From: Bacteroidales bacterium
Lineage (GTDB): Bacteria; Bacteroidota; Bacteroidia; Bacteroidales; P3
Assembly (NCBI GenBank): GCA_017645585.1
Contig: JAGCOF010000027.1
Location: 1 to 36,256, forward strand
Direction: 5' to 3'
DNA: 36,256 nt
Positions 10,874 through 30,542 of the stretch are shown here, piece by piece. Under the pieces are notes generated by a model. It saw only the letters and a list, made by a program, of their open reading frames with translations. It made no database searches and was not told the origin of the DNA. The position numbers and the translations under genes were made by a program. The stretch's first letter is position 1. Every line of letters starts with the position of its first letter.

Positions 10874-10904
10874 AGCAATATCGTTTTTTTAAACTTTCGC
10901 GGTG

Positions 10905-10989: not shown

Positions 10990-11290
10990 ATTTACATCGT
11001 GCACGACCTATTCGTATCGGCACCGTATCCGCACCGTATCGACACCGTCTTTTCTCCGACCACAGTCGGACTTCTGTCGGACTTGAGTCGGACCAGAGTC
11101 GGACCAGAGTCGGAGTTGGTGCGGGACGATACAGCCGTTAACATGTTTATAACATGATTATTAGCACTATCAATTGCCACCAACACCCGTTTTTGTCCAA
11201 CAGAAGGCCATTTTTAGGAGTTATTCAGAGGCCGAACTGACTACTGACAAACAACAACCGACAACTATTTACATCGCGCACGACCTATTT
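10990..11290. repeat. Composite repeat element A: two TCGTGCACGA boxes with an 11-nt array between
   Basis: The box ATTTACATCGTGCACGACCT starts at 10990, with its palindromic core at 10997-11006. Three 11-nt units ending in ACCGTA or ACCGTC follow (11017-11049). Then come six 11-nt units at 11055-11120: TCCGACCACAG, four TCGGAC units and TCGGAGTTGGT. The first two units form a TCCGAC/GTCGGA hairpin. A second box (core TCGCGCACGA, 11274-11283) lies 277 nt after the first. CCACCGACCACC- or CAACCGACAACT-like low-complexity sequence precedes each box. The same layout is found at 30163-30464. Confidence 0.75.
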
Positions 11291-11311
11291 TTGTCACCGC
11301 TTTTTCACCTC

Positions 11312-11350
11312 CCCGCCGTTGGCGGTAATCCTGTAAATCTTGTAAATTTT
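11312..11350. repeat. Single copy of the CCGCC hairpin / AATCCTG repeat
   Basis: CCGCCGTTGGCGG is followed by TAATCCTGTAAATCTTGTAAAT. It aligns base for base with the right end of the element at 10283-10320 read on the minus strand, with G/T changes. It lies between repeat element A and the promoter of the next gene. Confidence 0.65.
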
Positions 11351-11393
11351 TCATCTGGATTTATGGATTACGCGCAGCGGGATAAATAAAAAT

Positions 11394-11424
11394 TTTGCCA
11401 CATTGGGGAAAATGCGTATCTTTG
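11394..11424 (+). promoter_or_regulatory. Bacteroidota promoter for the gene at 11450
   Basis: TTTG (11394-11397) and TATCTTTG (11417-11424) are separated by 19 nt, a close match to the consensus. Transcription should start near 11430 and leave a leader of about 20 nt. Confidence 0.85.
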
Positions 11425-11449
11425 CAGTCAAATTTAAACCGCTCCACCT

Positions 11450-12721
11450 ATGAAAAGACTTGGCATCATCGAAATAATACTAATTCTAAGTGGTATTGTA
11501 TGCGCTCAGGACACTATCTTCGAGCAGGATCCGTGGTATCTATTTAATGAACATGGGCCGTTTTATTCTACGACAGAATTTACTGGAAGAAATAATATTG
11601 GCGTCGATAATATTATTCAGCAGTTTTGTGCGGAAACCCCGGGAACCTTTATTTATGGTATCGCCATCACGGCAAAGAATTTCCCTATTGACATTGAGGG
11701 TGTGTATCCTCCCTCATTTCTTCTGTACAAGCATGCGGCATCAGGCACACCTCCATCAATTGCCTTCATAGACTCGGCAAATGTATATGACAACATGTAC
11801 AAGTCATGTTATTTCAACTATTATGTGGAGGACAATTCATGTTATCATGCAGGCAATTATGTAGTCCCCTGCTATGAGTTTTATTTTGACATACCACACA
11901 TGATAAACGCCACCTGCGATACGTTTTATATCTCCACCTATTGGCCTCAGGAGCGTCGGTCGGTATGGAGGGAGTGGTATCAGCAAATTCAGGACCCCGA
12001 GAGGTGGTATTATATGTATGTTGGCTACTATAATATTTCACCAAGTACACCAATACAACCATGGTTTCAATCACTCTCTTTGGACACAATTACAGATATT
12101 TCTTACGTGAGTGCTGCTGCTTTAGGGGGAGGCATATTCCCCATAGTAAAATTGCGGTGTACTGCGATGGAAAATCTACAGTTGGTGGAGCAGGGGTATC
12201 TGTCGGCGACGGTGGCGTGGCGGCAGAACGAGACGCCAGAGCAGTATCAGGTTTCCATCGGTCCCGTCGGCAATAAGCCCGATTCGGGGGCCATGTTCTA
12301 CACCACCGACACCTTCTATACCTTCACCAATTTAGAGCCCGACACAAACTATTCGGTGTGGGTGCGCAAGGCCTGCCGATACATTACCGCAGGCTATGAC
12401 ACCATTGTGTGGAGCGACTGGAGCAACGAAGTGGTATTCACGGCTGTGGGCATCGACGAGGTGGAGGCCGACGGGGTGCGCATCACCAGCCAGCGCAGCA
12501 GCATCGTGGTGGAGGGGGCCGAGGGCCGCGAGGTGAGGGTGTACGACATGCTGGGGCGCGAGGTGACACACTCCTCAGTCAGCGTATGCTCGGCCCGAAA
12601 TGCCACAGGCATTTCTCTTCCTAACTTAGGGGAGCAGCGAAGAATAGCGGTGCCGACGGCGGGCATCTACATGGTGCGCGTGGGCAACCTGCCGACACGC
12701 AAGGTGGCGGTGTTGCGGTAG
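11450..12721 (+). CDS. Secreted protein with fibronectin type III-like domain and type IX sorting signal
   Basis: 423 aa. A signal peptide covers residues 1-19 (cleavage before Q20). Residues 20-242 are an unrecognised, Tyr- and aromatic-rich domain with many N-x-T/S-like segments. Residues 245-330 look like a fibronectin type III domain (LSATVAWRQN; FTNLEPDTNYSVWVRKAC; WSDWSNEVVFTA). Residues 334-423 are a type A C-terminal sorting domain (VRVYDMLGREV; GIYMVRVGN; KVAVLR), which sends proteins through the type IX secretion system to the cell surface. Base composition changes sharply near 12180: the 5' part is about 40% GC by eye and the Fn3 and sorting part is 57-70%. This suggests a chimera of acquired and native segments. 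Confidence 0.85.
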   Translation: MKRLGIIEIILILSGIVCAQDTIFEQDPWYLFNEHGPFYSTTEFTGRNNIGVDNIIQQFCAETPGTFIYGIAITAKNFPIDIEGVYPPSFLLYKHAASGTPPSIAFIDSANVYDNMYKSCYFNYYVEDNSCYHAGNYVVPCYEFYFDIPHMINATCDTFYISTYWPQERRSVWREWYQQIQDPERWYYMYVGYYNISPSTPIQPWFQSLSLDTITDISYVSAAALGGGIFPIVKLRCTAMENLQLVEQGYLSATVAWRQNETPEQYQVSIGPVGNKPDSGAMFYTTDTFYTFTNLEPDTNYSVWVRKACRYITAGYDTIVWSDWSNEVVFTAVGIDEVEADGVRITSQRSSIVVEGAEGREVRVYDMLGREVTHSSVSVCSARNATGISLPNLGEQRRIAVPTAGIYMVRVGNLPTRKVAVLR

Positions 12722-12756
12722 TCTTTTTCACTTTATTTTTATATATACATACTATT

Positions 12757-12806
12757 TATTGTTTTCCTACGTTAAGAGTTTTATTATTTTAAAAAGGAAA
12801 ACAATA
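12757..12806 (+). promoter_or_regulatory. Inverted repeat covering the ribosome-binding site of the next gene
   Basis: TATTGTTTTCC (12757-12767) is the exact reverse complement of GGAAAACAATA (12796-12806). The right arm holds the AAGGAAA ribosome-binding region of the GTG start at 12808. In RNA the arms could pair across a 28-nt loop and hide that site. Regulation is inferred only from this geometry. Confidence 0.45.
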
Positions 12807-12807
12807 C

Positions 12808-13716
12808 GTGAAAAAGCATCTCATACTGCCCCTGATAGCCCTGGCGGCGCTGCTGGCCACCAGCTGCGAGGAAGACGAGTTCACCGAGCCGTCGTTCATC
12901 CACTTGGAGTCCATCATACTGCAACCCAACGACAACCACCTGCTGTTCAACGACCCGGGCATGCTCACCAGCGACATTGTGGCGGCCTACGTGGTGGCCC
13001 ACCGTCCGGGGGCGTCGAAGGTGGATACCATCGGACTGTTCGAACTGCCGTTCACGGTGCCGATACTCTACCAGGGCGAGCTGGACTACATCGACTTCTA
13101 CCCCGCCATACAGCAGAGCGGCAGCTCGTTGGCGTTGCCGTTCTACACGTTCTACCACCGTATACGCCATGAAGGCGGCACCCTCGTGAAAGGCGCCACG
13201 CTGGATTTTGGCACCGACACCACGACCTACAACCTGACGCGCGAGGATATGCGTATCTTTGTGCCCTTCGAGCCGCCGGCAAGCGACATCTATTTCGACT
13301 CGGTGATGCAGTGGGCCACCGGCGCCACGGCCGACGCCTGCACAGGACAGGGCTACGGCTATGTGCATGTGCCGGCGGACCGCAGCTATGTGGACTTCGC
13401 GCTGGAGCCGACCATCACCGTCACCGACCCCACCAAGCTGGTATACCTGGAGCTGGACACCCGTAGCGACATGGACTTCGAGGTGTATATGAACTCGCGC
13501 TACGACTCGGGCGGCGCCATCGACAAGCAGCCCGTGATGGTGGTGCGCAAGTCGTCGACCTGGAAGCACCTATACATCAACCTGGGCAAGACCTGGGCCT
13601 ATTTCAATCATTACAAAGACTTCACGCTGTCGTTCTCGGCCCTGAACGAGAACGGCGTCGAGGGCGACATACGGCTCGACAATGTGCGCGTGCTGACCAC
13701 GAGCGTGGTGCTATAA
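12808..13716 (+). CDS. Lipoprotein of unknown function
   Basis: 302 aa, GTG start with AAGGAAA upstream. The signal peptide ends in a lipobox (LATSC, Cys20) followed by acidic residues (EEDE), typical of surface-directed or outer-membrane lipoproteins in Bacteroidota. The body is beta-rich, with no domain recognised beyond a jelly-roll-like feel in the second half (LVYLELDTRSDMDFEVYMNS; FTLSFSALNENG; IRLDNVRV). It lies 50 nt upstream of the sugar phosphotransferase gene and may be cotranscribed with it. Confidence 0.8.
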   Translation: MKKHLILPLIALAALLATSCEEDEFTEPSFIHLESIILQPNDNHLLFNDPGMLTSDIVAAYVVAHRPGASKVDTIGLFELPFTVPILYQGELDYIDFYPAIQQSGSSLALPFYTFYHRIRHEGGTLVKGATLDFGTDTTTYNLTREDMRIFVPFEPPASDIYFDSVMQWATGATADACTGQGYGYVHVPADRSYVDFALEPTITVTDPTKLVYLELDTRSDMDFEVYMNSRYDSGGAIDKQPVMVVRKSSTWKHLYINLGKTWAYFNHYKDFTLSFSALNENGVEGDIRLDNVRVLTTSVVL

Positions 13717-13765
13717 AAACTGACAACCGACAACCGACAACTGATAACTTGACAACCGACATCTA
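13717..13765 (+). repeat. ACTGACAACCGACAA low-complexity repeat
   Basis: Short repeats of the motif GACAACC/T fill the gap between the lipoprotein stop and the sugar phosphotransferase start. The same motif precedes a TCGTGCACGA box at about 11236-11268 and appears as ACTGACAACT at about 33983-34006. It looks like a recurring intergenic simple sequence in this genome. Confidence 0.6.
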
Positions 13766-13766
13766 C

Positions 13767-15200
13767 ATGGAAAAGAAACAAACAGCCAAATATATTGTCT
13801 GCGACACCCTGTCGGCCATGCTGGCGTGGGCGGCGCTCTTCGTCTTCCGCAAGACGGTACTCGAGGCCGACGGATGGGAAGGACTGCGCCATGTGTTCAA
13901 CGACCCGCACTTCTGGACAGGACTGCTGGTGGTCACCGCCGGCTGGCTGGTGCTCTACACCATCCAGGGCATGTATCGCAACGTGCTACATCGCGCCCGA
14001 CTGAAAGAGCTGATTGAAACCCTGATAGCCACCGTGCTGGGCGTGGTGGTGATTTTCTTCGTGCTGCTCATCGACGACGAGATGCCCTCCTACCGCAACC
14101 ACTACGCCTCGTTTCTCTTTCTGCTGGCGGTACATTTCACGTTGACCTACATCCCCCGTCTGCTCATCACCACGCAGACCGTGGGGCGCGTGCACAACCG
14201 CCGCATCGGTTTCCCGACGCTGATGATAGGCACCGGCCGCAAGGCGTTGCAGACCTACCTCGACCTCGAGAACCAGGAGACCTACTCGGGCGAGCTCTTC
14301 GTGGGCTGCATCGACATAGAGGGCGCAGAGCGCAGAGCGCAGAACGGAGAGCAGGGGGTGGAGAAGGTGATGCCCTGCCTGGGCAAGATAGACAACCTGC
14401 GCGAGGTGGTGGAGCGCCACAACGTGGAGGAGGTGATTATCGCCGTCGAGGACGAGGATCGTGGCCGCGTGAACGAACTGCTGCGGGCCGTGGACGAAGC
14501 GGGCGACATGATTATCAAGATTACCCCCGACGCCCGCGACCTCATGGTGGGCTCCATCAAGCAGGAGAGCATCTTCCACTCGCCGTTGATAGTGATCAAC
14601 AACCGCCTGATGGACGAGTGGCAGTACTCGCTGAAGCGCATCTTCGACATCCTTATCTCAATAGTGGCGCTGGTGCTGCTGTCGCCTGTCTTCCTTGTAA
14701 CGGCGCTGATAGTGAAATTCACCTCCCCCGGGCCCGTTTTCTACGCCCAGGAGCGCATAGGCTACCACGGCAAGCCGTTCAAGATGCACAAATTCCGCTC
14801 GATGTATGTCGACGCCGAGGAGAGCGGTCCCGCACTGAGCAAGGACAACGACCCTCGCATCACCCCCTTCGGGCGCTTCATGCGCAAGGTGAGGCTGGAC
14901 GAAATACCTCAGTTCTACAATGTGCTTAAGGGCACGATGAGCCTGGTGGGCCCCCGTCCCGAGCGGCAGTTCTACATCGACCAGATTGTGAAGCGTGCAC
15001 CCGAATACTTGCTGCTGCAACGTGTGAAACCCGGCATCACCTCGTGGGGCCAGGTGAAATACGGCTATGCCTCGACGGTGGACGAGATGGTGGAGCGCCT
15101 ACGCTACGACCTGCTGTATCTCGACAACATGTCGCTCAGCACCGACCTGAAGATACTCCTCTACACGGTGATTATCATCATGCAGGGACGAGGAAAGTGA
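13767..15200 (+). CDS. Polyprenyl-phosphate sugar-1-phosphate transferase (WcaJ/WbaP family)
   Basis: 477 aa from ATG 13767. A TTG at 13749 in frame would add six residues from a repeat and is less likely. The N-terminal half has four to five TM helices. The middle is a Rossmann-like CoA-binding-type domain (MIGTGRKALQTYL). The last 190 residues are the bacterial sugar transferase catalytic domain: an RIFDILISIVALVLLSPVFL membrane hairpin, then KFTSPGPVFYAQERIG, HKFRSMYVDAE, VRLDEIPQFYNVLKG and LVGPRPERQFY. The enzyme loads the first sugar phosphate onto undecaprenyl phosphate to start exopolysaccharide, capsule or O-antigen synthesis. No other glycan genes are adjacent, so it is an orphan priming enzyme here. 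Short GCGCAGA repeats at about 14325-14345 encode a small loop insertion. Confidence 0.93.
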   Translation: MEKKQTAKYIVCDTLSAMLAWAALFVFRKTVLEADGWEGLRHVFNDPHFWTGLLVVTAGWLVLYTIQGMYRNVLHRARLKELIETLIATVLGVVVIFFVLLIDDEMPSYRNHYASFLFLLAVHFTLTYIPRLLITTQTVGRVHNRRIGFPTLMIGTGRKALQTYLDLENQETYSGELFVGCIDIEGAERRAQNGEQGVEKVMPCLGKIDNLREVVERHNVEEVIIAVEDEDRGRVNELLRAVDEAGDMIIKITPDARDLMVGSIKQESIFHSPLIVINNRLMDEWQYSLKRIFDILISIVALVLLSPVFLVTALIVKFTSPGPVFYAQERIGYHGKPFKMHKFRSMYVDAEESGPALSKDNDPRITPFGRFMRKVRLDEIPQFYNVLKGTMSLVGPRPERQFYIDQIVKRAPEYLLLQRVKPGITSWGQVKYGYASTVDEMVERLRYDLLYLDNMSLSTDLKILLYTVIIIMQGRGK

Positions 15201-15221
15201 AAAATGAAAAGTGAAAAATAT

Positions 15222-15929
15222 ATGAAACAGAGATTACTGATTGGTGCGCTGGCAGTATTACTGCTGGCAGCCTGCGGAGAAAAGAGCAAGGCCCCAAGGC
15301 TGGAGAACCAGACCGACACCCTCTCGTGGGTGATGGGCGAAAACCTGGGCCTGGCGCTGGACCAGATGGAGAATATACAGCTCGACTACGACCTGGTGAT
15401 GCAGGCCATGAAGCACACCCTCGACGGCAAGGAGCAGCCCATCAGCGACAGTGCCTTCCATGACGCGATGAACTACATCATCTTCATGCAGCAGCAAGAG
15501 GCGCTGCGCAAAGCCGAGGGCAACAAGTCGATGGTGGATCGTCAGCAGGAGGCCTATTTCGCCAACCTGGAGAAAGAGAACCCCAACGTCAAGAAGCATC
15601 CCGTCGGCTTCTACTACGAGGTGCTGAAACAAGGCACGGGCCGCACGGCGGAAGTGGGCCTGCGCGTCAGTTTCGACTACCGCAGCTTCCTGATGTTCAG
15701 CGGCGAGGCCTACGACCAGACCTACGGCAAACGCGACCCCATACTGCATGTGGTGGGCAAGCCCATGTTCCCGGGCCTGATTGCTGGCATGCAGTTGATG
15801 AACGAAGGCAGCATCTACCGCTTCTACTTCCCCTATCAGCTGGCCTTCGGCGAGCGCGGTTCGGACCCGATACCCGGCTTCACCCCCTTCATCTACGAGG
15901 TGGAACTGCATAAGATTTACAACGACTAA
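15222..15929 (+). CDS. FKBP-type peptidyl-prolyl isomerase lipoprotein
   Basis: 235 aa from ATG 15222. An ATG at 15204 sits in a GTGAAAAATGAAAAGTG repeat and would spoil the signal. The lipobox is LAAC with Cys18. Residues 20-120 resemble the helical FKBP N-terminal dimerisation domain (DTLSWVMGENLG). Residues 125-235 are an FKBP fold (VGFYYEVLKQGTG; VSFDYRSFLMFSGEAYDQT; VVGKPMFPGLIAGMQLMNEGSIYRF; FIYEVELHKI). Several active-site positions differ from canonical FKBPs (a Phe replaces the usual Trp in the pocket region), so it may act more as a chaperone than an isomerase. Periplasmic membrane-anchored folding factor. Confidence 0.88.
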   Translation: MKQRLLIGALAVLLLAACGEKSKAPRLENQTDTLSWVMGENLGLALDQMENIQLDYDLVMQAMKHTLDGKEQPISDSAFHDAMNYIIFMQQQEALRKAEGNKSMVDRQQEAYFANLEKENPNVKKHPVGFYYEVLKQGTGRTAEVGLRVSFDYRSFLMFSGEAYDQTYGKRDPILHVVGKPMFPGLIAGMQLMNEGSIYRFYFPYQLAFGERGSDPIPGFTPFIYEVELHKIYND

Positions 15930-15948
15930 CACATAAAACCACTACATC

Positions 15949-17388
15949 ATGGTATCATTCATTATCGCTGTCATACTGCTGGTACTTGGCTACCTGCTTT
16001 ATTCCAAGGTGGTGGAGCGCATTCTCGGCGTCGACCCGCAACGTACCACGCCCGCCGTGGCGCACCCCGACGGAGTGGACTACGTGCCCATGAAACCGTG
16101 GCGCATTTTCCTCATCCAATTCCTCAACATTGCCGGCGTGGGTCCCATCTGCGGCGCCATCATGGGTGCGCAGTTCGGCACTGCCTCGTTCCTCTGGATT
16201 GTCTTCGGCTGCATCTTCGCCGGTGCGGTGCACGACTTCATCGCGGGCTTTATCAGCATCCGTCAGGACGGCGCCTCGCTGCCCGAGATACACGGCAAAT
16301 ACCTGGGCAACGGCATGAAGCAGTTCATGCGCGGCTTCACGGTGCTGCTGATGATCCTGGTGGGCGCCGTGTTTGTGAATACCCCCGCCGTGCTGCTCAA
16401 CCAGAACTTCACACCCGATTGGAATATCTTCATCTGGGTGGGCATCATCTTCGCCTACTACCTGCTGGCCACCCTGCTGCCTATCGACAAGGTGATTGGC
16501 AAGATATACCCTATCTTTGGCATTCTGCTGCTGGCCATGGCTGTGGCCATCGTGGTGGCCTTTGTGGTCTACCGTGTGCCGATACCCGAGGTGTGGCAGG
16601 GCATGGAGAACCGCCACCCGCAGGCCGCCACCAACCCCATCTTCCCCATGATGTTCATTAGCATCGCCTGCGGTGCCATCAGCGGCTTCCACGCCACCCA
16701 GAGCCCCCTCATGGCTCGCTGCATGATCAACGAAAAGCAGACACGCCCCATCTTCTACGGCGCCATGATTACCGAAGGCGTGGTAGCTCTCATCTGGGCT
16801 GCCGCCGCCACCTACTTCTTCCACGACAAACCCGAGCTGTGCATCGGCAAGAGCGGTAACGATATGGTGGGCGTCATCGCAAACGAGTGGTTCCCCAAGG
16901 TCATCGCCGTCATCTGCATCCTCGGCGTCATCAGCGCGGCCGTCACCAGCGGCGACACCGCCCTGCGCTCGGCGCGACTGATTGTGGCCGACTTCATGCA
17001 CGTGGACCAAAAGCCCGTTCCCAAGCGTTTGCTGGTGGCCCTGCCGGTATTTGTGCTGGCCGCCGCACTGCTGGTCTTCTCGCTGGTCGACAAGGAAGGT
17101 TTCCAGGTTATCTGGCGCTACTTCTCGTGGGCCAACCAATTCCTGGCCATGGTCACCCTCTGGGCTGTCACCGTGTTCCTCTCGCGCCACCTGCCCGGCA
17201 AAGCCTGGTATTGGATCACCCTCATCCCTGCCCTCTTCATGAGCATGGTGACCATCAGCTTCCTCCTCGTGGCACAGAAAGAGGGCCTCGGCAGTGTCCT
17301 GCCGCATTCCCTCGGCTACGGCATCGCCGCCGTCATCACGCTGGCGCTCTGCATACTCTTCTTCATTCGCAAAAACAGAACCAAATAA
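15949..17388 (+). CDS. cstA: CstA-family carbon starvation / pyruvate or peptide transporter
   Basis: 479 aa inner-membrane protein with about 13 hydrophobic segments. Family hallmarks: the N-terminal IIAVILLVLGYLLYSKVVER and GVDPQRTTPA; the conserved QFLNIAGVGPICGAIMGAQF; HDFIAGFISIRQDGASLPEI; and ISGFHATQSPLMARCM. E. coli CstA is about 700 aa; this shorter type is common in anaerobes. Members transport peptides or pyruvate; the substrate here is unknown. It follows the FKBP gene by 19 nt and precedes the VWA gene by 3 nt, so the three are probably cotranscribed. Confidence 0.93.
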   Translation: MVSFIIAVILLVLGYLLYSKVVERILGVDPQRTTPAVAHPDGVDYVPMKPWRIFLIQFLNIAGVGPICGAIMGAQFGTASFLWIVFGCIFAGAVHDFIAGFISIRQDGASLPEIHGKYLGNGMKQFMRGFTVLLMILVGAVFVNTPAVLLNQNFTPDWNIFIWVGIIFAYYLLATLLPIDKVIGKIYPIFGILLLAMAVAIVVAFVVYRVPIPEVWQGMENRHPQAATNPIFPMMFISIACGAISGFHATQSPLMARCMINEKQTRPIFYGAMITEGVVALIWAAAATYFFHDKPELCIGKSGNDMVGVIANEWFPKVIAVICILGVISAAVTSGDTALRSARLIVADFMHVDQKPVPKRLLVALPVFVLAAALLVFSLVDKEGFQVIWRYFSWANQFLAMVTLWAVTVFLSRHLPGKAWYWITLIPALFMSMVTISFLLVAQKEGLGSVLPHSLGYGIAAVITLALCILFFIRKNRTK

Positions 17389-17391
17389 CCC

Positions 17392-18741: not shown

Positions 18742-18755
18742 CAATTATTGACAAT

Positions 18756-20027: not shown

Positions 20028-20031
20028 TAAT

Positions 20032-20349: not shown

Positions 20350-20352
20350 GAG

Positions 20353-21042: not shown

Positions 21043-21054
21043 AACAAAATAACA

Positions 21055-22269: not shown

Positions 22270-22280
22270 AATGCAACCCT

Positions 22281-22490: not shown

Positions 22491-22507
22491 CAAGCCATCA
22501 GAGTTAG

Positions 22508-22537
22508 GGCCCGCACCTGTGGCGCGGGCCTTGTTTT
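22508..22537 (+). terminator. Rho-independent terminator
   Basis: GGCCCGC (22508-22514) pairs with GCGGGCC (22524-22530) and is followed by TTGTTTT, 17 nt after the stop of the small membrane protein. Confidence 0.85.
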
Positions 22538-22593
22538 AACCAAAATTAACACTTGCACAACTCACTCTAAGCCAACACCAACTCCATACCATG

Positions 22594-22648
22594 TCCGACT
22601 AAAGTCCGACTCTCCTCCGATCACCGTCGGACAATGCACGGAGATGAC
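22594..22648. repeat. 11-nt periodic TCCGAC array (locus B)
   Basis: Units begin at 22594 (TCCGACTAAAG), 22605 (TCCGACTCTCC), 22616 (TCCGATCACCG), 22627 (TCGGACAATGC) and 22638 (ACGGAGATGAC). Read on the minus strand this matches the arrays at 11055 and 30228, including TCGGACATGGT followed by GGAGTTGG. No TCGTGCACGA box lies at the expected distance, so this is a partial, inverted copy. Confidence 0.7.
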
Positions 22649-22691
22649 TCGGGAATAACAGACGATTAAGACACAGGCAAAGGAGAAGAAA

Positions 22692-22943
22692 ATGAGACAA
22701 TCGACTATCGATAAATATGGACGCCATATACTCTTTTTCTGGGGTATCGTATTCGCCCTCGTGGCGTACATTTTATGGAAGGATGTCATTGTCGAGCACC
22801 AATGGCCCGACAATCTCGACCTCTGGATAGGCCTCATATCGACGCCGCTGGTTTCCCTCGTCAGCCTTGGAACTGCCATATTCTACCACCAGATAAAGAA
22901 GAAGTCTCAGTCTAAAAACAAACCGAAAGCCGACAATAAATGA
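22692..22943 (+). CDS. Small membrane protein of unknown function
   Basis: 83 aa with two hydrophobic segments (about residues 12-28 and 43-64) and a Lys-rich C-terminal tail, so both ends are probably cytoplasmic. An unusually good Shine-Dalgarno sequence (AAAGGAG, 22679-22685) precedes the ATG by 6 nt; most genes here lack one. Its stop overlaps the start of the LOG gene in an ATGA, implying coupled translation. No family recognised. Confidence 0.75.
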   Translation: MRQSTIDKYGRHILFFWGIVFALVAYILWKDVIVEHQWPDNLDLWIGLISTPLVSLVSLGTAIFYHQIKKKSQSKNKPKADNK

Positions 22944-23512
22944 ACACAGCAGTCTTCTGCGGCTCTTCGCTGCCGCACAACAAGGAAATCGTCGAGGCCG
23001 CCGCCGTCCTCGGCCGCCGCATCGCGCAGGAGGGGCACACCCTCGTCTATGGCGGATCCAACCTCGGCCTCATGGGCGTGGTCAGCGGCGCGGCGCTGGA
23101 GGAGGGAGGCCGCGTCGTCGGCGTCATCCCCAACCTCTTCAGCGACGACATCATCCACTCGCAGCGCGTCACCGAGCTCGTCCGCGTCGGCAGCATGGCC
23201 GAGCGCAAGGAACGCATCCTCGCCCTCTGCGACGCCTTCATCGCCCTCCCCGGCGGCATCGGCACTATCGACGAAGTCTCCGAAGTCATGGTCATGAATC
23301 AGCTGCAGATAGTCGACGGCAAACGAGTGTTGGACGGCAGCTATCAGCAGAAGCCGATGATACTCCTCAACATCGACGGCTACTACAACCCCTTCCTCGA
23401 ACAGCTCCGCCTCATCAAAGAGGAGGGCCTGATGCGCAGCGACGCCGGGCTGGTCTCGGTAAATTCTTTAGATGATGTGTTTTTAAAGCTCAATCAGATT
23501 GTAAAAGATTAG
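22940..23512 (+). CDS. LOG-family protein (nucleoside 5'-monophosphate phosphoribohydrolase type)
   Basis: 190 aa Rossmann-fold protein of the TIGR00730/LOG group. Signatures: VFCGSS (5-10), VYGGSNLGLMG (37-47), MAERK with R89 and K90, and PGGIGTIDE (104-112), the PGGxGTxxE catalytic loop. These enzymes split cytokinin-type or ordinary nucleoside monophosphates into base and ribose 5-phosphate; in non-plant bacteria the physiological substrate is uncertain. Its last seven codons form the left arm of a long hairpin (23489-23566). Confidence 0.93.
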   Translation: MNTAVFCGSSLPHNKEIVEAAAVLGRRIAQEGHTLVYGGSNLGLMGVVSGAALEEGGRVVGVIPNLFSDDIIHSQRVTELVRVGSMAERKERILALCDAFIALPGGIGTIDEVSEVMVMNQLQIVDGKRVLDGSYQQKPMILLNIDGYYNPFLEQLRLIKEEGLMRSDAGLVSVNSLDDVFLKLNQIVKD

Positions 23513-23566
23513 AAAAGAAGGCTACGCAATCATTATTCTTTTAAAATCTTTTACAATCTGATTGAG
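23489..23566. repeat. Long inverted repeat made from the 3' end of the LOG gene
   Basis: The left arm 23489-23510 encodes the last residues of the LOG protein (LNQIVKD). Its perfect 22-nt inverted copy is at 23545-23566. With two mismatched positions the stem extends a further 7 bp (23513-23519 with 23536-23542), leaving a 16-nt loop. The right arm ends 15 nt before the next start codon. It could act as a terminator or attenuator; it lacks a clear T-tract. Confidence 0.8.
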
Positions 23567-23581
23567 ACAAAATCTGAAGCG

Positions 23582-24247
23582 ATGAGCCATCTGTTGAGCA
23601 AGAGCAAGTACATCCGCGGCCTGCAGTGCGACCGCGCCCTGTGGCTCGACGTGCACAACCCGCGCTTGGCGAAGTACACGCGCGAGCAGATGCGCCGCTT
23701 CGACCGTGGCCGCGACTTCGAGTACGCCTTCAAGGCCACCTTCCCCGACGGCATTGACCTCAGCGCCGAGCTGAAGCGCAACGTGGACGCCTACCCTGAG
23801 CGCACGGCGCAATTATTAGACAAGGAAGAGGAGATAGACCTCTTCGAGGCGGGTTTTTCATACGACGACGTGCTGGTCTTGGCCGACGTGGTCCACAAGC
23901 GCCCCGACGGCACATTAGATATATATGAGGTGAAAAGCGGCAACACCCTCAGCGAGACCTACCGCCGCGACGCCGCCCTGCAACATTATGTCATCTCCCA
24001 CTGTAGGGAGATAAACACCTTCAGCATCGTCTACGCCAACCCCGCCGGCGGCTTCATCAAAGAGGAACTCTCCGCCGCCCTGCAAGAGCAGCATGAGAAA
24101 ATAGAAAAGAACATCGCCGCCATGAAAGAGATCATCCGCAGCGGCGAGCCCGCCACACCCACAGGTCAGCACTGCCTCGAGCCCTACGCCTGCCCTTACC
24201 AGCACTATTGCGCCCAAGGCGTCAGACAAATGTCGCTGTTTGGGTAA
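23582..24247 (+). CDS. Cas4-like PD-(D/E)XK nuclease with Fe-S cysteines
   Basis: 221 aa. N-terminal LSKSKYIRGLQCDRALWL has the first cluster cysteine, C16. The nuclease motif is D102, then E116-V-K118 (LVLADVV...IYEVKSG), followed by a Gln-containing helix (DAALQHYVI). Three C-terminal cysteines, C198, C204 and C210, complete a Cas4/AddB-type 4Fe-4S site. It resembles the N-terminal part of DUF2779 proteins, which are usually longer with a C-terminal RNase H-like domain missing here. There are no cas genes or CRISPR array nearby. It probably acts on DNA ends or single strands; the biological role is unknown. Confidence 0.82.
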   Translation: MSHLLSKSKYIRGLQCDRALWLDVHNPRLAKYTREQMRRFDRGRDFEYAFKATFPDGIDLSAELKRNVDAYPERTAQLLDKEEEIDLFEAGFSYDDVLVLADVVHKRPDGTLDIYEVKSGNTLSETYRRDAALQHYVISHCREINTFSIVYANPAGGFIKEELSAALQEQHEKIEKNIAAMKEIIRSGEPATPTGQHCLEPYACPYQHYCAQGVRQMSLFG

Positions 24248-24250
24248 AAG

Positions 24251-24283
24251 GAAGAGGGCCACACCATTGATGTGGCCCTCTTC
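24251..24283. terminator. Bidirectional terminator
   Basis: GAAGAGGGCCACA (24251-24263) and TGTGGCCCTCTTC (24271-24283) form a perfect 13-bp stem between two convergent genes. T-rich sequence follows on the plus strand (TTATATTG) and a less clear one on the minus strand. Confidence 0.85.
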
Positions 24284-24299
24284 TTATATTGTTGTATAA

Positions 24300-25130
24300 T
24301 TATCTATCCACCGGGAAGGCAATCTCGCGCTCAATGACTTGATAGGGCACGTTGTTGCGGTAGATGGTCTGGCGCACCCAGTTGTCGTCCTCGTCGTACT
24401 CGTAGACGTAGCTGTGCTTCCAATTGAGGTGCTCGTCATAGTTGAACGAGCTGACCTCAATGAGGTTGTCGTGGTCGTCGTAGTAGTAGGTCGTCAGAGC
24501 CGAGAGGAACTCGTCGGCATCGTAGAAGCGCCACTCCACACGGTTGCCACGGGCATCATACTTGTAGAGGTAGTGCTGCATCAGCTCGCCGTCGCGGTTG
24601 TAGAACTCCATCTCGGTGCAGTTGCCCTTCTGGTCATATTTGTAGGTACGCTTCTCGGTCATTTCGCCGTCCTGGTCGAAACTCTGCTCCTCCACCTTGA
24701 GGCCGTTCTTGAAAGTGCTGCTCTCCTTCTTGGTCATCTGGTTGCCGAGGAACACGGTGCGCTCGATGCGGTTGCCGTCACGGTCGTTGAGGTAGGCGGT
24801 GCGGCCGGTGAGCATCTTCTCGCGGTTGTACTCGTTCCAGCCCAGGCTGTAGCCGTTGACGTCGAAGTAGTAACTGTACCAGGTATAGTCGTCGGCCTTG
24901 GTGCGGAACTTGTCAGCGAAGTTGCCGCGCTTGTCAAAGGTGATGCTATCGATGCAGACGAGCTGCCGGCCACCGTCGCGTCCGCCGCGGAGGTTGTAGG
25001 TATACTCTATGACATAGATGGCGTTGCCGTGGATACCCATTTCGGTGCGCGAATTCTTGCGGGGCTTGGGGCCTGCAAATGCTGTGCCTGCCATGAGCAG
25101 GACAAGGACGAGAGCGATATTTTTCTTCAT
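24300..25130 (-). CDS. Secreted YD-repeat-like protein
   Basis: 276 aa. A signal peptide covers residues 1-19 (AFA before G). The rest is a run of about 20-residue beta-hairpin units of the form YxYDxxGNxxExxFYxxDGE, similar to YD/RHS repeats and MORN-like wrap repeats: TYKYDQKGNCTEMEFYNRDG, YKYDARGNRVEWRFYDAD, YYYDDHDNLIEVSSFNYD and YEYDEDDNWVRQTIYRNN. There is no toxin domain or RHS core peptide, so it is not a polymorphic toxin. Probably a periplasmic or outer-membrane-associated repeat protein common in gut Bacteroidota. It has its own promoter. Confidence 0.82.
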   Translation of the reverse strand: MKKNIALVLVLLMAGTAFAGPKPRKNSRTEMGIHGNAIYVIEYTYNLRGGRDGGRQLVCIDSITFDKRGNFADKFRTKADDYTWYSYYFDVNGYSLGWNEYNREKMLTGRTAYLNDRDGNRIERTVFLGNQMTKKESSTFKNGLKVEEQSFDQDGEMTEKRTYKYDQKGNCTEMEFYNRDGELMQHYLYKYDARGNRVEWRFYDADEFLSALTTYYYDDHDNLIEVSSFNYDEHLNWKHSYVYEYDEDDNWVRQTIYRNNVPYQVIEREIAFPVDR

Positions 25131-25153
25131 CTTTTATACTATATTTTGCGGTG

Positions 25154-25187
25154 CAAAGATACAACTTTTTCGCGATACTAACGCAAA
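25154..25187 (-). promoter_or_regulatory. Bacteroidota promoter for the YD-repeat-like gene
   Basis: The minus strand has TATCTTTG (25154-25161) and a TTTG (25184-25187), 22 nt apart, 24 nt ahead of the start codon. Confidence 0.65.
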
Positions 25188-25223
25188 AAAAGCGAAAATA
25201 TTGTGTTTTAGGGCGCAATCCAA

Positions 25224-26072
25224 TCAGAAGTCGCCGAGGGTCTCGGGCAACTGGGCGAGAGCCTTGGGCAGGTCGTCGGCGCTGAGCACCGAGCCGTGGT
25301 ACTTGTTGGTGTCCTGCATGAAGTCGACACCGTAGCCCATCTTGGTGGTGAGGATGACGCACACCGGCGCACCCTGGCCGCTCATCTGCTTGGCCTTGGC
25401 CATGCCGTCGAGCACCTGCTGCATGTCGTTGCCGTTCTCAATGACCACCACCTTCCACATAAAGCTCTCAAACTTGGCCTTGAGGTCGCCGAGGCTCATC
25501 ACTTCGTCCACCGTGGCGTCGATCTGCTGGTTGTTGTAGTCGATGGTGCTGATGAGGTTATCTACCTTCTTGGCGCCAGCAAACATCACGGCCTCCCAGA
25601 TCTGACCTTCTTCCAATTCACCGTCGCCATGCATGGTGTAGACCATGTGCTTGTCACCGGTCATCTTCTTGCCGAGGGCGGCACCTACGCCGACGCTCAT
25701 ACCTTGACCGAGGGAGCCCGAAGCCATACGGATGCCCGGCAGGCCGTGTTCGGTGGAGGGGTGGCCCTGCAGACGGGTGCCGAACTTACGGAAGGTAGCC
25801 AACTCGCTGACGGGGAAGTAGTCGCGGCGGGCCATGGTGCTGTAGATGACCGGCGTGATATGGCCCTGCGAGACAAAGAGCATATCCTCACCCTCGCCGC
25901 TCATGGTGAACTTCTGCGGGTCGAAGTCCATGATATTGAAGTTCATGGCCACAAACCAATCGGTGGTGCCGAGCGAGCCGCCCGGGTGGCCGCTCTTGGC
26001 GGCAGTGGTCATACGGAGAATGTCGCGGCGCACCTGCGTCGCAATCTGCTGGAGTTCTGCTGTGGTTTTCAT
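25224..26072 (-). CDS. Transketolase N-terminal subunit
   Basis: 282 aa, the thiamine-diphosphate-binding half of a split transketolase. The signature KSGHPGG (26-32) carries a substrate-contacting His29. GHITP holds a cofactor-region His, and GDGELEEG (149-156) with N180/N181 forms the Mg-ThDP motif GDG-x~30-N. The partner half is at 21055-22269 on the opposite strand. The two subunits are usually encoded side by side, so the separation here is odd. The ATG overlaps the upstream lipoprotein stop by one base (TAATG). It is the last gene of the minus-strand run that starts at 30084. Confidence 0.95.
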   Translation of the reverse strand: MKTTAELQQIATQVRRDILRMTTAAKSGHPGGSLGTTDWFVAMNFNIMDFDPQKFTMSGEGEDMLFVSQGHITPVIYSTMARRDYFPVSELATFRKFGTRLQGHPSTEHGLPGIRMASGSLGQGMSVGVGAALGKKMTGDKHMVYTMHGDGELEEGQIWEAVMFAGAKKVDNLISTIDYNNQQIDATVDEVMSLGDLKAKFESFMWKVVVIENGNDMQQVLDGMAKAKQMSGQGAPVCVILTTKMGYGVDFMQDTNKYHGSVLSADDLPKALAQLPETLGDF

Positions 26073-26524
26073 TATTCTTGTGTTTTATTTTGTTTCAGTT
26101 TGAATACATACAAGCGCGAGTTTTGGTCGGTGGCATAGAGCTCGTTGCCGTGGCGGGTGACGTTCACTGCCCAAGTGTTCTCGTCCCAATCATGGATGGT
26201 ACCGTTGCCACGGTCGCCATACATGGTGACATGTCCCCACACGCGGCCCTGCGCACCGTCGGTCTCCACATAGATGGTTTCACCCTTTTTGTTGTTGTCC
26301 TGTTGCTTACGGGCAACAGCGGCTTGGGTGGCAGCGGGCTTGGGGGCGGGCTTGGCGTCGCGGATGACCGGCACAAGCGTCACTGACTCAGCCTCGACGG
26401 GCTCTGCGGCGACTGTCTCTTCCACGGGTTCCTCGGGCACCGTCACAGGTTCCTGCACATTCTGCTTGCAGGCGGCGAGGGTGGCCAATGCCAGCAGCGG
26501 GGTCAAAATGTAACTTATTTTCAT
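26072..26524 (-). CDS. Small lipoprotein with Pro/Glu/Ala linker
   Basis: 150 aa. The lipobox is LAAC (Cys19). Residues 25-75 are a low-complexity linker rich in Pro, Glu, Val and Ala. The C-terminal 65 residues form a compact beta domain (ETIYVETDGAQGRVWGHVTMYGDRGNGTIHDWDENTWAVNVTRHG). No family recognised. The linker suggests that the small domain is held away from the membrane. It lies 19 nt after the endonuclease gene and overlaps the transketolase start. Confidence 0.75.
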   Translation of the reverse strand: MKISYILTPLLALATLAACKQNVQEPVTVPEEPVEETVAAEPVEAESVTLVPVIRDAKPAPKPAATQAAVARKQQDNNKKGETIYVETDGAQGRVWGHVTMYGDRGNGTIHDWDENTWAVNVTRHGNELYATDQNSRLYVFKLKQNKTQE

Positions 26525-26543
26525 AACTTGATGTGTATTGTTT

Positions 26544-27293
26544 TCAATATTTCCAATGACTCCAATCGAACGAAGCCTCCGCCTCCTCGGGCAGCGAGGG
26601 GAAGAGGTTGCGGCCTATGACCGCTTCTACGCTGTCGACGGTGACGGCATAGCGCTTCGGCGAGCCGTCCTGTTTGTTGTTCTCCACCAGGAAGCCCACC
26701 GTGACGAAGCCCCCGTGGGTCTGCACAGCCAGCGCCTTGAAGAAGGCATCGGGCACTTGCACGCCGGCCTTGCCTATGGTGCCATAGCGCCCTGTGCCTT
26801 GCACGGGACCGCAGACGACATAGACGCTGCCATAGCGTTTGGCCAGCCTACGTGTCAGCTCCTCAATCTTACGCCAAGCCTGACTGTTCATCTCGTGGTC
26901 CTGCGGGCAGACATTGGTGAAGTAATAGCTCTCCTCCAGCGCCTGCGCGCTCCACTTCATGTCGGCCCTCGGCGCCATGTGGCCCTTGTCCCAGCCGCTG
27001 TTGGCATAGTCCTCGCGGCTGGCCTTGGGGTAGTCGACGTTGGGGTCGCGGCTGAAGGGGCAATTGACGTCGTAAGCGTCGCTCAATTCCTCAGCCGTCA
27101 ACTCCCACGCCACCCAATTGGGTGTAAGGGTTGTGTGGTTGTAGGAGGCCGTGTAGCCGGTGCGCACCACAATGTCCTCCTCCTCGCCGTAGGCGGGCAG
27201 TTCCAGGCCGGCGGATGCCGACAAGGGCTGCTGCGGCACCTGCGCCGTGCAGGTGGCCACCAAGAGGGACAATATGACCATCAACACCTTCAT
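26544..27293 (-). CDS. Exported DNA/RNA non-specific endonuclease (NUC1 family)
   Basis: 249 aa from ATG 27291-27293, one base after the stop of the upstream gene. Longer in-frame versions lie inside that gene and lack a signal. Residues 1-18 are a signal peptide. The beta-beta-alpha metal site is DKGH (102-105, a DRGH variant with catalytic H105) followed by MAPRADM, with the metal-binding Asn in NVCPQDHEMNSQAW (N136). The last third carries the typical VPDAFFKALAV and KRYAVTVDSVEAVIGRNLFP. It degrades DNA and RNA outside the cytoplasm, probably for nutrient recovery. No inhibitor gene is seen beside it. Confidence 0.92.
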   Translation of the reverse strand: MKVLMVILSLLVATCTAQVPQQPLSASAGLELPAYGEEEDIVVRTGYTASYNHTTLTPNWVAWELTAEELSDAYDVNCPFSRDPNVDYPKASREDYANSGWDKGHMAPRADMKWSAQALEESYYFTNVCPQDHEMNSQAWRKIEELTRRLAKRYGSVYVVCGPVQGTGRYGTIGKAGVQVPDAFFKALAVQTHGGFVTVGFLVENNKQDGSPKRYAVTVDSVEAVIGRNLFPSLPEEAEASFDWSHWKY

Positions 27294-27294
27294 C

Positions 27295-28695
27295 CTATAA
27301 ATCCACCTCCTCGCGGAATTCGGGGATACTGATATGCTTCCATCCGTCTTTCTCCAACGTCTCGGCAAAGTGCTGCTGCGTCTCCGCCTCGCCGTGCACC
27401 AGGAAGATATACTTCACCTTCTTCTTGTCCTGGCAGGAGATATAGCGCATCATCTCGCTGTAGTCGCCGTGGCCCGACAATGAGTCAATGCGGCGCAACT
27501 CGGCGCGCACCTTGTGCACCTGGCCGAAGATGCTCACCGTCTCGTCGCCACGCATAATCTTGGCGCCCAGCGTCGAGGGCTCGCAGTAGCCCACGCAGAG
27601 GATAGTCGTGGCGGGATTGTCGATGTGGTTGGCCAGGTGGTGCTTCACACGGCCAGCCTCCATCATGCCGCTGGCGGCAATGATGACGCAAGGTTTGTGC
27701 CTGATGTTGAGTTGTTTGCTCTCCATCACGCTCTGTATGTAGTGCAGCCTGTTGAAGCCGAAGGGGTCGGGGTCAGTCTGGCAGTATTCGGCGATGTTTT
27801 GGTTGAAGCACTCGGTGTGCAGGCGCATAATGTTGGTGGCGCTGACGCTCAACGGGCTGTCCACAAAGACGTCGATGTCGGGCAGCAGCTTGACATGCTC
27901 CAGCCGGTCGAGCGCATAGATGATTTCCTGGGCGCGGCCGATGGCGAAGCTGGGGATGATGAGCTTGCCCTTCTTCTTGGTACAGGTGTCGAGCACCGCC
28001 ATCAGCAGTTCCTGCTCGGCATCTTGTATGCTCTCGTGCAGTCGGTCGCCATAGGTGCTTTCCATGATGAGGTAGTCCACCTGCGGGAACGGCTCGGGGT
28101 CCTTGAGTATCTGCTTGTCGTAGCGGCCGATGTCGCCCGTGAAGCCGAGGCGTATCGTGCGACGGCCGTCCTTGATTTCGAGGTAGACGAGCGCCGAGCC
28201 GAGGATGTGGCCGGCGTCGAAGAACTCCACCGTCACTTCGCCCTCGATGTTGAATTTCTTATGGTAGGGCACGCTGATGAAACAGCTCATGCACTGCTGT
28301 GCGTCCTGCTCGTCGTAGATGGGCTCTACGGGTTCCAGCCCCTGGGCCTTGCGTTTCTTGTTGAAGGTCTGCGTATCCTGCTCCTGTATGCGGCCGGCGT
28401 CAGCCAGCATGATGGCGCAAAGGTCGCGCGTGGCCGGAGTGCAAAGCACCGTGCCGCGGAAACCCAACTTGTAGATATAGGGTATCAGGCCACTGTGGTC
28501 GATATGGGCGTGGCTGAGGATGAGGTAGTCAATCTCAGTGGGGTCGAAGCCCAGGTCGCGGTTCATCGCGTCGGTCTCCAGGCCCTTGCCCTGATACATG
28601 CCGCAGTCAAGCAGTATCTTAACTCCGCGCTTGGTGGTTATCAGGTGTTTGCTTCCCGTCACCTCGCGGGTGGCACCCATGAATTGCAGTTTCAT
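27295..28695 (-). CDS. Beta-CASP metallo-beta-lactamase-fold ribonuclease
   Basis: 466 aa. The N-terminal metal motif is H62-A-H64-I-D66-H67, with further ligands in DAGHILGSA and FTGDIGR. The beta-CASP insert is marked by MESTYGDR and PSFAIGRAQE. The C-terminal RNA specificity domain has SGMMEAGRVKHHL and SGHGDYSEMM. The group relates to eukaryotic CPSF-73 and bacterial RNases; members cut or trim RNA in the cytoplasm. It is cytoplasmic here (no signal) although it sits between two exported-protein genes. It starts 12 nt after the LRR gene and ends one base before the endonuclease start. Confidence 0.94.
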   Translation of the reverse strand: MKLQFMGATREVTGSKHLITTKRGVKILLDCGMYQGKGLETDAMNRDLGFDPTEIDYLILSHAHIDHSGLIPYIYKLGFRGTVLCTPATRDLCAIMLADAGRIQEQDTQTFNKKRKAQGLEPVEPIYDEQDAQQCMSCFISVPYHKKFNIEGEVTVEFFDAGHILGSALVYLEIKDGRRTIRLGFTGDIGRYDKQILKDPEPFPQVDYLIMESTYGDRLHESIQDAEQELLMAVLDTCTKKKGKLIIPSFAIGRAQEIIYALDRLEHVKLLPDIDVFVDSPLSVSATNIMRLHTECFNQNIAEYCQTDPDPFGFNRLHYIQSVMESKQLNIRHKPCVIIAASGMMEAGRVKHHLANHIDNPATTILCVGYCEPSTLGAKIMRGDETVSIFGQVHKVRAELRRIDSLSGHGDYSEMMRYISCQDKKKVKYIFLVHGEAETQQHFAETLEKDGWKHISIPEFREEVDL

Positions 28696-28707
28696 ATTCT
28701 CTTGCCG

Positions 28708-30084
28708 TTAATTAACCATTACTTTTCGGGCGGGTCCCTCGCCTACCCTAACCAAATAGGCACCCGGGGCGGCCACCCTGACGGTGAGCGCCTCATGGTG
28801 TGCCGTCGTGTCGTACAGCTGGCGCCCTGCCACGTCATACACCCTCACCTGCTGCCCAGCCACACCGCTGATTTTCATATACCTTTCCGACACCGACACC
28901 CTCCATGGAGACGCTTCGACGGCGCTCGCCGACAGCTGCTCGAAGACGGCCTGCAGCGAGGTGTTGCCCGTCAGCGTCAGCTGGCGCGGGTTCTCAGTGC
29001 TGCCATCCTGCCAACAGACGAAGCGACCGCCCTCAAGGGGCAGCCCGCACACCTCGGCCAGGGTGCCCGCCGGCAGCAGGGCACTGCCCACGCCGACACC
29101 GAGTGCCACATTGCCCGAGGTCACATCGAGCCTGTAGAAGGTCGGAAGGATGGTATCGTGTATCGTATCATACAAGGTAACAGTGTCGTGCACCTGCACC
29201 GTCAGGTAGACGGTGTCGGACAGCACCACCGTGTCGTGCAGCACCAGGGTGTCGCCATCACCCAGCCACAGTGTGTCGCGCTGCTCGCGGAAGAACATGG
29301 CAGTAAACGAGCAGTCGGTCAGCGCGTTGACCATGCGCGGATTGAGGGTGTCGCCGTCCTGCCAGCAGGCGAAGAAGCAGCCCGTGGCAGGCTGTGCAGC
29401 CAGGGTCACCAGCGTGCCGGCATTGTAGCTGCCGCCGCCGGTCACCGTGCCGCGCGAGGCGTAGTTGGCCTGCACCGTGAGGGTTACCTGACAGCCGGCA
29501 TCCACCAGCGTACCGAAGCCGTTCCACGGCGCCACCGCGCCATAGGCGGCCACAGCATTGCAAGCCACATGCAACGTACAGGCGCTCAACGCTATATTGT
29601 AGAAGATATTGGAACCCGTGGTCGGAGGCACGGCAGCGCCCACCCACACGTCGGTCAAGGCCGAGTCGTCCACAAAAGCGAAGTCGCCAATGCTCATCAG
29701 GGTGGAGGGCAAAGTGATGGTGGTCAGCGACGTGCAGTTCCGCACCGCCGAATTGCCCACCGCACTAATGCCCTCGGCGAGGGTCACCGAAGTGAGGCCT
29801 GCGCAACCGTAAAGTGAATGATTGCCAAGCGAAAGCACGTTATAGGTGCTGTCACCGTCCGAGACGGTGGCCGGTACCGTCAGGGCACCTGTGGGCCGTG
29901 TAAAGCCGTTCCAACCAGCCGTCGGACTATTATTGGCATTGGGGTACACCACCTGCACGCCGCCCGCCTCACGGGTGAAGTAGAGCGTCTGGCCCGACGG
30001 CACCGTGGCCGCGAAGTCGTAGGCCCGCACCGCCGTGGAGCAGAGCGCAAAGAGCAGCAGGAGTATGGCACCTCTTTTTATCAT
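28708..30084 (-). CDS. Leucine-rich-repeat surface protein with type IX sorting signal
   Basis: 458 aa. A signal peptide covers residues 1-21. BspA-type leucine-rich repeats cover about 85-150 (LYGCAGLTSVTLAEGISAVG; VRNCTSLTTITLPSTLMSIG). Two InlB B-repeat-like modules follow (VTLTVQANYASRGTVTGGG ... CWQDGDTLNPR, and LDVTSGNVALGV ... CWQDGSTENPR). Between them lies a Thr/Asp-rich stretch with repeated HDTV/YDTI units. The C-terminal sorting domain is VRVYDVAGRQLYD ... GAYLVRVGEGPARKVMVN. Such proteins are displayed on the cell surface by the type IX system and bind host or food-derived ligands; the ligand is unknown. It heads the five-gene run, with no consensus promoter visible just upstream. 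Confidence 0.88.
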   Translation of the reverse strand: MIKRGAILLLLFALCSTAVRAYDFAATVPSGQTLYFTREAGGVQVVYPNANNSPTAGWNGFTRPTGALTVPATVSDGDSTYNVLSLGNHSLYGCAGLTSVTLAEGISAVGNSAVRNCTSLTTITLPSTLMSIGDFAFVDDSALTDVWVGAAVPPTTGSNIFYNIALSACTLHVACNAVAAYGAVAPWNGFGTLVDAGCQVTLTVQANYASRGTVTGGGSYNAGTLVTLAAQPATGCFFACWQDGDTLNPRMVNALTDCSFTAMFFREQRDTLWLGDGDTLVLHDTVVLSDTVYLTVQVHDTVTLYDTIHDTILPTFYRLDVTSGNVALGVGVGSALLPAGTLAEVCGLPLEGGRFVCWQDGSTENPRQLTLTGNTSLQAVFEQLSASAVEASPWRVSVSERYMKISGVAGQQVRVYDVAGRQLYDTTAHHEALTVRVAAPGAYLVRVGEGPARKVMVN

Positions 30085-30162
30085 AATTCTTTATTAACGC
30101 ACCCCCTGCGCCTTTATTGTATCCACCCTTAAAAAAAGATTTCGGCCACCCTTTGGGAAGGT

Positions 30163-30464
30163 ATTTATGTCGTGCACGACCTAATCGAATACACCCCGTA
30201 CGAACGACGTAGGAACACCGTGTTTTGTCCGACTGCGGTCGGACTTGAGTCGGAGTTGAGTCGGACATGAGTCGGACATGGTACGGAGGGGGTGCGACGT
30301 CAGGATGGGGTATTGCGCACTGAAACAGTGATTTTTAGGTGGTTGTTGGTCGGTAATCGGTGGCCGGTGGCCGGAAATGCGGCGATTTGGGGGCGGTTGT
30401 CGGTCATTTTTGACCACCGACTACCGGCCACCGGTTACCCATTTATGTCGTGCACGACCTATTT
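30163..30464. repeat. Composite repeat element C: two TCGTGCACGA boxes with an 11-nt array between
   Basis: Box cores lie at 30170-30179 and 30448-30457, 278 nt apart. Three 11-nt units follow the first box (30190-30222, including CGAACGACGTA and GGAACACCGTG). Then comes an array from 30228: TCCGACTGCGG, TCGGACTTGAG, TCGGAGTTGAG, TCGGACATGAG, TCGGACATGGT. The array begins 58 nt after the box start, exactly as in element A. Between the array and the second box is an imperfect 23-bp inverted repeat (30352-30374 with 30417-30439, 20 of 23 positions paired). Confidence 0.75.
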
Positions 30465-30532: not shown

Positions 30533-30542
30533 CAATTTGTTT

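Follow-up and report, generated by a model that had tools for sequence, protein, structure and literature searches.

Interspersed repeats of bacteria are usually recognized by their sequence. The repetitive extragenic palindromic (REP) sequences usually lie at gene ends, and the parC iterons, 11-bp repeats that stand in arrays and are bound by the oligomerizing protein ParR, make up a single plasmid centromere. Two further systems resemble the elements treated here: BrickBuilt of P. gingivalis, an intergenic miniature inverted-repeat transposable element (MITE) with a 23-nt minisatellite and 19 copies in strain ATCC 33277 (PMC4596501), and the E. coli gyrase motif and Mu strong gyrase site, which extend over ∼130 bp and combine two-fold symmetry with a helical periodicity of the arms (PMC6379681, PMC12393610). 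Here we describe elements A (10990-11289) and C (30163-30463), two intergenic elements of one layout in a 36,256-nt stretch of Bacteroidales bacterium DNA (assembly GCA_017645585.1, contig JAGCOF010000027.1, positions 1 to 36,256; hereafter the window). We read them, tentatively and with slightly less than even confidence, as copies of a dispersed intergenic element that acts at the DNA level as a protein-binding platform phased at 11 bp. The underlying observations are the copies themselves, their layout and phase, a dyad in many arrays, the position relative to promoter motifs, and an array upstream of yidC with units that differ from species to species.

Layout of elements A and C

Both elements read on the forward strand. 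Element A opens with a box, TTTACATCGTGCACGACCTA (10991..11010), which is followed by a left arm of ACCGT-type units in 11-nt steps (11013..11048; period 11 in Tandem Repeats Finder, TRF), by a dyad TCCGAC..GTCGGA with a right arm of TCGGA units, again in 11-nt steps (11055..11114; TRF 11058-11114), and by a second box, TTTACATCGCGCACGACCTA (11268..11287). Element C has the same order, with a first box TTTATGTCGTGCACGACCTA (30164..30183), a left arm of CCG units that reads as partly degenerate in the sequence (30184..30226), a dyad with a right arm of TCGGA units in 11-nt steps (30227..30280; TRF period 11 at 30238-30277), and a second box (30442..30461). The initial annotation had described each element as opening with a box that recurs as a direct copy 277 or 278 nt further on; this description was accurate, in that all four boxes match TTTAYRTCGYGCACGACCTA exactly and the second follows the first at 277 nt (element A) or 278 nt (element C). 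It had also placed the start of a TCGGAC-type 11-nt array at +58 from the box core, and the dyad-opening TCCGAC is indeed found 58 nt past the start of the core TCGTGCACGA in both A (10997 to 11055) and C (30170 to 30228). The three 11-nt ACCGT units that it reported after the box can be read cleanly in A; those of C begin with two degenerate ones, CCCCGT and CGACGT. The 14-nt box core is matched ten times in the window at up to three mismatches, against 3.0 expected, and none of 100 shuffles reached ten matches.

Copies in the source genome

The genome from which the window derives (G000; other G numbers denote other genomes) is a draft of 1.93 Mb that is 83% complete. A genome-wide search for the box, allowing up to three mismatches and using the reversed pattern as a control, gave 86 matches on the forward strand and 80 on the reverse (control, 0 and 1); the box is nearly palindromic, and many boxes therefore match on both strands. 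The 61 non-redundant loci that were fetched comprise 56 pairs and five single boxes, four of the latter close to a contig end, such that the search for further copies proposed at the outset yielded at least 56 box pairs in this genome, A and C among them. Contigs C1, C6, C11, C27, C29 and C42 end near a box element, as if repeats broke the assembly.

Most copies are of one type (type 1). Their left box leads into CCG units spaced at 11 nt, and these into the dyad TCCGAC-N4-GTCGGA; on its far side come five or six CGG units with the same spacing, after which a stretch of lower conservation and a set of 7-nt repeats lead up to the second box. Pairwise identity among the 51 type-1 copies (51 of the 56 pairs, with the five type-2 copies left out) has a median of 59% and a maximum of 88%, while the boxes, the CACCGT units and a TTTTgTCCGAC..GTCGGA core are near-invariant. 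Such divergence around boxes and a core that hardly vary supports the earlier view of a maintained layout rather than a recent duplication. The five type-2 copies carry the same boxes around a different 11-nt array, composed of TGGGACAACAA and its inverse. Box-to-box distances, measured on 55 pairs, are 278 nt in 15 copies, 267 nt in ten and 277 nt in nine, with other values in the rest, and 43 of the 55 leave 2 or 3 modulo 11, a preference that must be partly due to common descent.

The array is also found without the box. Array B, on the reverse strand at 22577..22641, is an inverted match to element C with CCG units, dyad and CGG units, and both there and at a second TCGGA dyad array (L180) no sequence within 600 nt comes closer to the box than seven mismatches. 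Roughly a dozen further TCGGA dyad places, among the matches listed, have none of the listed boxes nearby. Because box-less arrays occur, box and array are best regarded as separate modules, of which the array can stand alone.

Units and period among relatives

Among 36 relatives of the same genus the box is present in one (G012), where boxes at ten loci are paired at 256-328 nt, and those pairs that were read enclose 11-nt arrays of CTCCGACACAA type. The pattern TCGGA-N6-TCGGA-N6-TCGGA, with at most one mismatch, occurs in 28 of 59 genomes of the genus, a count that includes our own; ten of these have more than 20 matches, whereas reversed controls give 0-12 per genome. Units vary both between species and within genomes: the favorite 11-nt unit differs species by species among the species examined, and several unit families are present within one genome. 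The initial annotation was right about layout, but it missed the separability of box and array and the fact that 11-nt arrays range far beyond the box.

What is retained amid this variation is the period. Arrays were counted in stretches totalling 904 kb in 27 genomes of the genus and 393 kb in 22 genomes from other families. The stretches were cut without looking for arrays, although the contigs sampled in our own genome were already known to carry elements, and the window is among the stretches. The periods tested were 7, 8, 10, 11, 13, 14, 16, 17, 19, 20 and 22, with multiples of 3 not counted and low-complexity segments left out. Within the genus there were 64 arrays of period 7, 60 of period 11, 38 of period 14, 28 of period 22, seven each of periods 8 and 16, one each of periods 10, 17 and 20, and none of periods 13 and 19, so that periods 7 and 11, with their multiples, dominate among those tested. 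The 393 kb from other families held no period-11 array, and period-7 arrays numbered two there against the 64 in the genus. Of the 60 period-11 arrays, 57 come from seven genomes sampled at 74-136 kb, and two of the 20 others (2-20 kb sampled) have any. When the called gaps of those seven genomes were scanned at periods 5-30, period 11 led or nearly led in five. An alignment of 38 units held 6.87 bits, compared with a maximum of 6.01 over 50 shuffled sets. A further motif that had been guessed, CTGA..TCAG, occurred near arrays in only two cases.

Position relative to genes and promoters

Gene neighbors were assigned with a codon-model gene caller for 55 of the 56 box pairs (L045, near a contig end, was left out). 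By type of gap, 21 elements lie between divergent genes, 24 between tandem genes and five between convergent genes, with five undetermined. In the stretches from the seven genomes, arrays are present in 13 of the 43 gaps between divergent genes, in 19 of the 185 between tandem genes and in five of the 32 between convergent genes; occupancy of divergent gaps exceeds that of other gaps (13/43 against 24/217, p 0.003), although divergent gaps are also longer.

TAnnTTTGY is the core-promoter motif of Bacteroidota. On the gene-start sides of box elements this motif lies between element and gene and is aimed at the gene in 38 of 62 cases and aimed away from it in four of 62; on gene-end sides the two orientations give 5/32 and 1/32, and the motif is found inside one of 55 elements. 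Given that the motifs stand between element and gene and rarely inside, the elements lie mostly upstream of promoters and outside messages. The two elements of the window conform, with promoter-like TATCTTTGC sequences, read from the sequence, outside element A on both sides (10904..10912 on the reverse strand for the left gene, which starts at 10873, and 11417..11425 on the forward strand for the right gene, which starts at 11450) and outside element C upstream of yidC (30525..30533, forward strand; yidC at 30608).

Neighboring TCGGA-type or box elements on one contig are separated by at least 5.1 kb (median 12.8 kb, mean 16.3 kb) over 36 intervals, which were taken among the matches listed, include type-2 and contig-end boxes as well as array B, and omit contigs with a single place and the lone box C48:17160. 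None of the 36 is below 5 kb, against ∼9.5 expected under independent placement; because the element list is incomplete and gene structure itself imposes spacing, we treat the separation of more than 5 kb as a lead.

Shared positions between species

The strongest case of a shared position is that of element C. Of 19 genomes, 11 have an 11-nt array that starts within 520 nt upstream of yidC. The units are of many kinds, and among periods 8 to 14 period 11 appears alone, save for one period-12 hit. This frequency exceeds the occupancy of divergent gaps (11/19 against 13/43, p 0.011). At L176 (G026, ∼1209), the position upstream of yidC is occupied by a nearly perfect palindrome whose 11-nt unit, ATATATGTGCT, is very unlike the units in that position elsewhere. 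In G024, three of five fetched arrays precede a gene whose G000 orthologue has a box element upstream, and these genes we take to be C1-peptidase-like, DNA polymerase III delta-like and MoxR-like; in G012 one of 14 loci shares its gene, presumably peptidyl-tRNA hydrolase-like, with a G000 box element. We conclude that some sites, yidC above all, have been kept or re-used, a conclusion that stops short of position conservation in general.

A candidate protein-binding platform and its alternatives

There is reason to think that the array itself is the working part. Taken together, the strict phasing at 11 bp, the dyad and the location ahead of promoters point to a DNA-level site for an oligomerizing protein. 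The array would present protein half-sites, one per helical turn of 11 bp and often symmetric about the dyad, whose innermost half-sites are 11 or 12 bp apart when judged by eye in several species. A putative oligomerizing DNA-binding protein might then bind along one face of the DNA, beginning at the dyad where one exists. Placed ahead of core promoters, and in many cases between two divergent ones, such a platform could bend DNA, insulate promoters, organize the chromosome or serve as an upstream regulatory site. The palindromic box pair around many TCGGA arrays in our own species is probably the site of a second protein, or else the old ends of a mobile element.

Several results weigh against this interpretation. 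Protein binding, its spreading and its role are what we infer, and the gap and spacing counts depend on a simple gene caller and a draft genome that is 83% complete. Of the 27 genus genomes, 18 yielded no period-11 array, all of them sampled at 20 kb or less, and some arrays (in G010, G023 and G003) are direct, without a dyad. When similar units, meaning those with fewer than four differences to another unit, are dropped, the 19 that are left hold 6.81 bits against a null mean of 6.61, a value equalled by nine of 50 shuffles; the excess over shuffles thereby vanishes, and the alignment does not support a unit consensus common to all. Related unit families exist, with no demonstrated consensus across all units, which would call for either one protein with very loose sequence demands or several proteins. 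The 18 relatives in the yidC comparison were hand-picked, several of them for having TCGGA arrays. Across nine other species, four of 56 array loci clearly share their adjacent gene with a G000 box element, in a comparison where many loci have flanks of only ∼600 nt, and our guess is that this is about the level of chance and not clearly above it. The locus of element A carries an array in one of 14 other genomes, and it was accordingly discarded as a conserved site.

The initial annotation had offered three options, namely a binding platform, a mobile repeat and a structured RNA. The platform fits best, on account of the dyad, the 11-nt phase, the place upstream of core promoters and the yidC arrays (11/19). 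In the mobile option the boxes would be the ends of a non-autonomous MITE-like element that a recombinase or transposase mobilizes in trans, with the arrays as passengers. The presence of a box at each end in 56 of the 61 loci, the high copy number, the mosaic neighborhood, the several contigs that end near elements and the few positions common between species (4/56) would all suit such an element, as would the yidC gap, which is short in the array-less G001, G024, G036 and G002 and long where an array is present, so that it looks like the gain of a block; the yidC gap of G004, however, is long and yet has no 11-nt array. The box is near-palindromic, which makes the pair inverted and direct at once. 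Against mobility, the copies are old (median identity 59%) and none are near-identical, the highest identity being 88%; arrays also occur without boxes; the box is found in one of 36 relatives; and searches of viral contigs for the box, of plasmids for element A and of phages for element C were blank, for which reason a phage or plasmid origin was dismissed. Among genome contigs of named organisms, where records of our own genome are possibly absent, the box had two matches (Lentzea and Kushneria), with about two expected by chance. Mobility of this kind is in our judgment unlikely, and the annotation's mobile repeat is less well supported than its platform, also because the G000 draft has no Y1_Tnp match; past mobility is conceivable. 

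It might also be expected that inverted 11-nt arms fold in a transcript as a long hairpin, to give a regulatory RNA, a terminator or double-stranded RNA. Palindromic arrays can be perfect or nearly so, with 43 of 43 positions paired in an array of G012 (L183, 17191-17275) and 38 of 38 in G019, and the predicted folds are strong. The copies of G000 that were read, however, pair their left and right arms only over a 7-bp core, some arrays have no dyad, and core promoter motifs stand between element and gene, which puts the elements mostly outside transcripts. Rfam gave no match in the window at gathering thresholds, and among 46 palindromic arrays with at least two transition mismatches 20 were of a single kind against 12.7 expected, a strand bias that is weak and inflated by repetition. 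The structured RNA of the initial annotation is therefore a weak option, and we consider it quite improbable. Strong gyrase sites, in which a dyad and phased arms are wrapped on the gyrase C-terminal domains, are less probable again. In their favor, array length and dyad resemble the symmetrical 130-bp E. coli motif with its 10.75-bp GC periodicity (PMC6379681), and intervals of 5-44 kb between elements could suit supercoil domains. Two-fold symmetry is seen in many arrays, not in all. In the GC content of 39 units (one entered twice), however, the first harmonic at period 11 shows no excess (z -1.6), so the phased alternation of GC and AT that defines the gyrase motif is missing, and a gyrase-like GC phase was rejected. 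REP sequences and bacterial interspersed mosaic elements (BIMEs) are dispersed intergenic palindromes in mosaics and in this resemble the box elements, which raises the question of spread or maintenance by a REP-associated tyrosine transposase (RAYT, a Y1 transposase). Y1_Tnp (PF01797) is present in 39 of 59 genus genomes, but it has no match in G000 (83% complete) nor in the array-bearing G009, G016 (100% complete), G019 and G029, and even if the missing 17% of G000 encoded a RAYT, G016 would be left unexplained; with the domain absent from five array-bearing genomes this explanation is largely refuted and extremely improbable.

To return to the platform, it is possible, though we hold it to be doubtful, that the genus has a chromosome-wide set of sites in which the helical period, and often a dyad, matters more than the letters. 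These would be platforms phased at 11 bp ahead of promoters, bound by an oligomerizing nucleoid protein with very loose sequence demands, and their units would turn over between and within genomes at a constant period. Equally speculative is the suggestion that such period-defined sites may constitute an undescribed kind of bacterial architectural system.

Other repeats in the window

A further 11-nt array, of TAGAGTTACCC type and found by TRF at 2599..2652 with no strand assigned, is box-less; its best box-like match within 600 nt has eight mismatches. Period-7 arrays of AACTGAC and ACCGACC types lie at 10959-10988, 13718-13761 and 33982-34006, and arrays of this period often abut boxes in G000. 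The segments 10285-10323 and 11309-11347 form an inverted pair of another dispersed module, with 9-nt units and a CGCCG..CGGCG hairpin, and this module adjoins box elements at several loci. Elsewhere in the genome, at L016, a GTTTCACGTGAAAC sequence lies just beyond the second box, to the right of the element, and resembles a parS site. A 31-nt inverted repeat, 94% complementary with a 16-nt loop, is found at 23489-23566, at the end of the gene at 22940-23512.

Comparison with known systems

In the literature searched, which lay mostly outside subscription journals and bioRxiv, no 11-nt intergenic arrays were described for Bacteroidota. In these arrays the rhythm of 11 nt is kept while the sequence changes across species and sites, and phase becomes separable from sequence as a selected trait; the arrays can thus be viewed as natural experiments on the evolution of DNA-binding arrays. 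Should a protein be found, it would be a new global organizer or regulator, and sites between divergent promoters would make bacterial promoter insulation directly testable.

The REP and BIME sequences of enterobacteria are likewise dispersed, intergenic, palindromic and mosaic, but the elements here are phased at 11 nt and lie mostly upstream of promoters, and several array-bearing genomes have no Y1 transposase. The gyrase motif shares with the arrays a length of ∼130 bp, symmetry and periodic arms, and differs in its GC phase, of which the arrays give no signal. The parC iterons share the 11-bp arrayed repeats, although they serve one plasmid centromere whereas the sites here are many and chromosomal. 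The nearest described counterpart found is BrickBuilt. Both are intergenic and multi-copy, and both place a tandem array of short units between conserved ends, which in BrickBuilt are a leader, a tail and small inverted ends. BrickBuilt is one sequence family, whose abstract mentions neither a dyad nor a change of unit between species, and it has a 23-nt unit in 19 copies, whereas the elements described here have an 11-nt unit, at least 56 box pairs and many unit families per genus.

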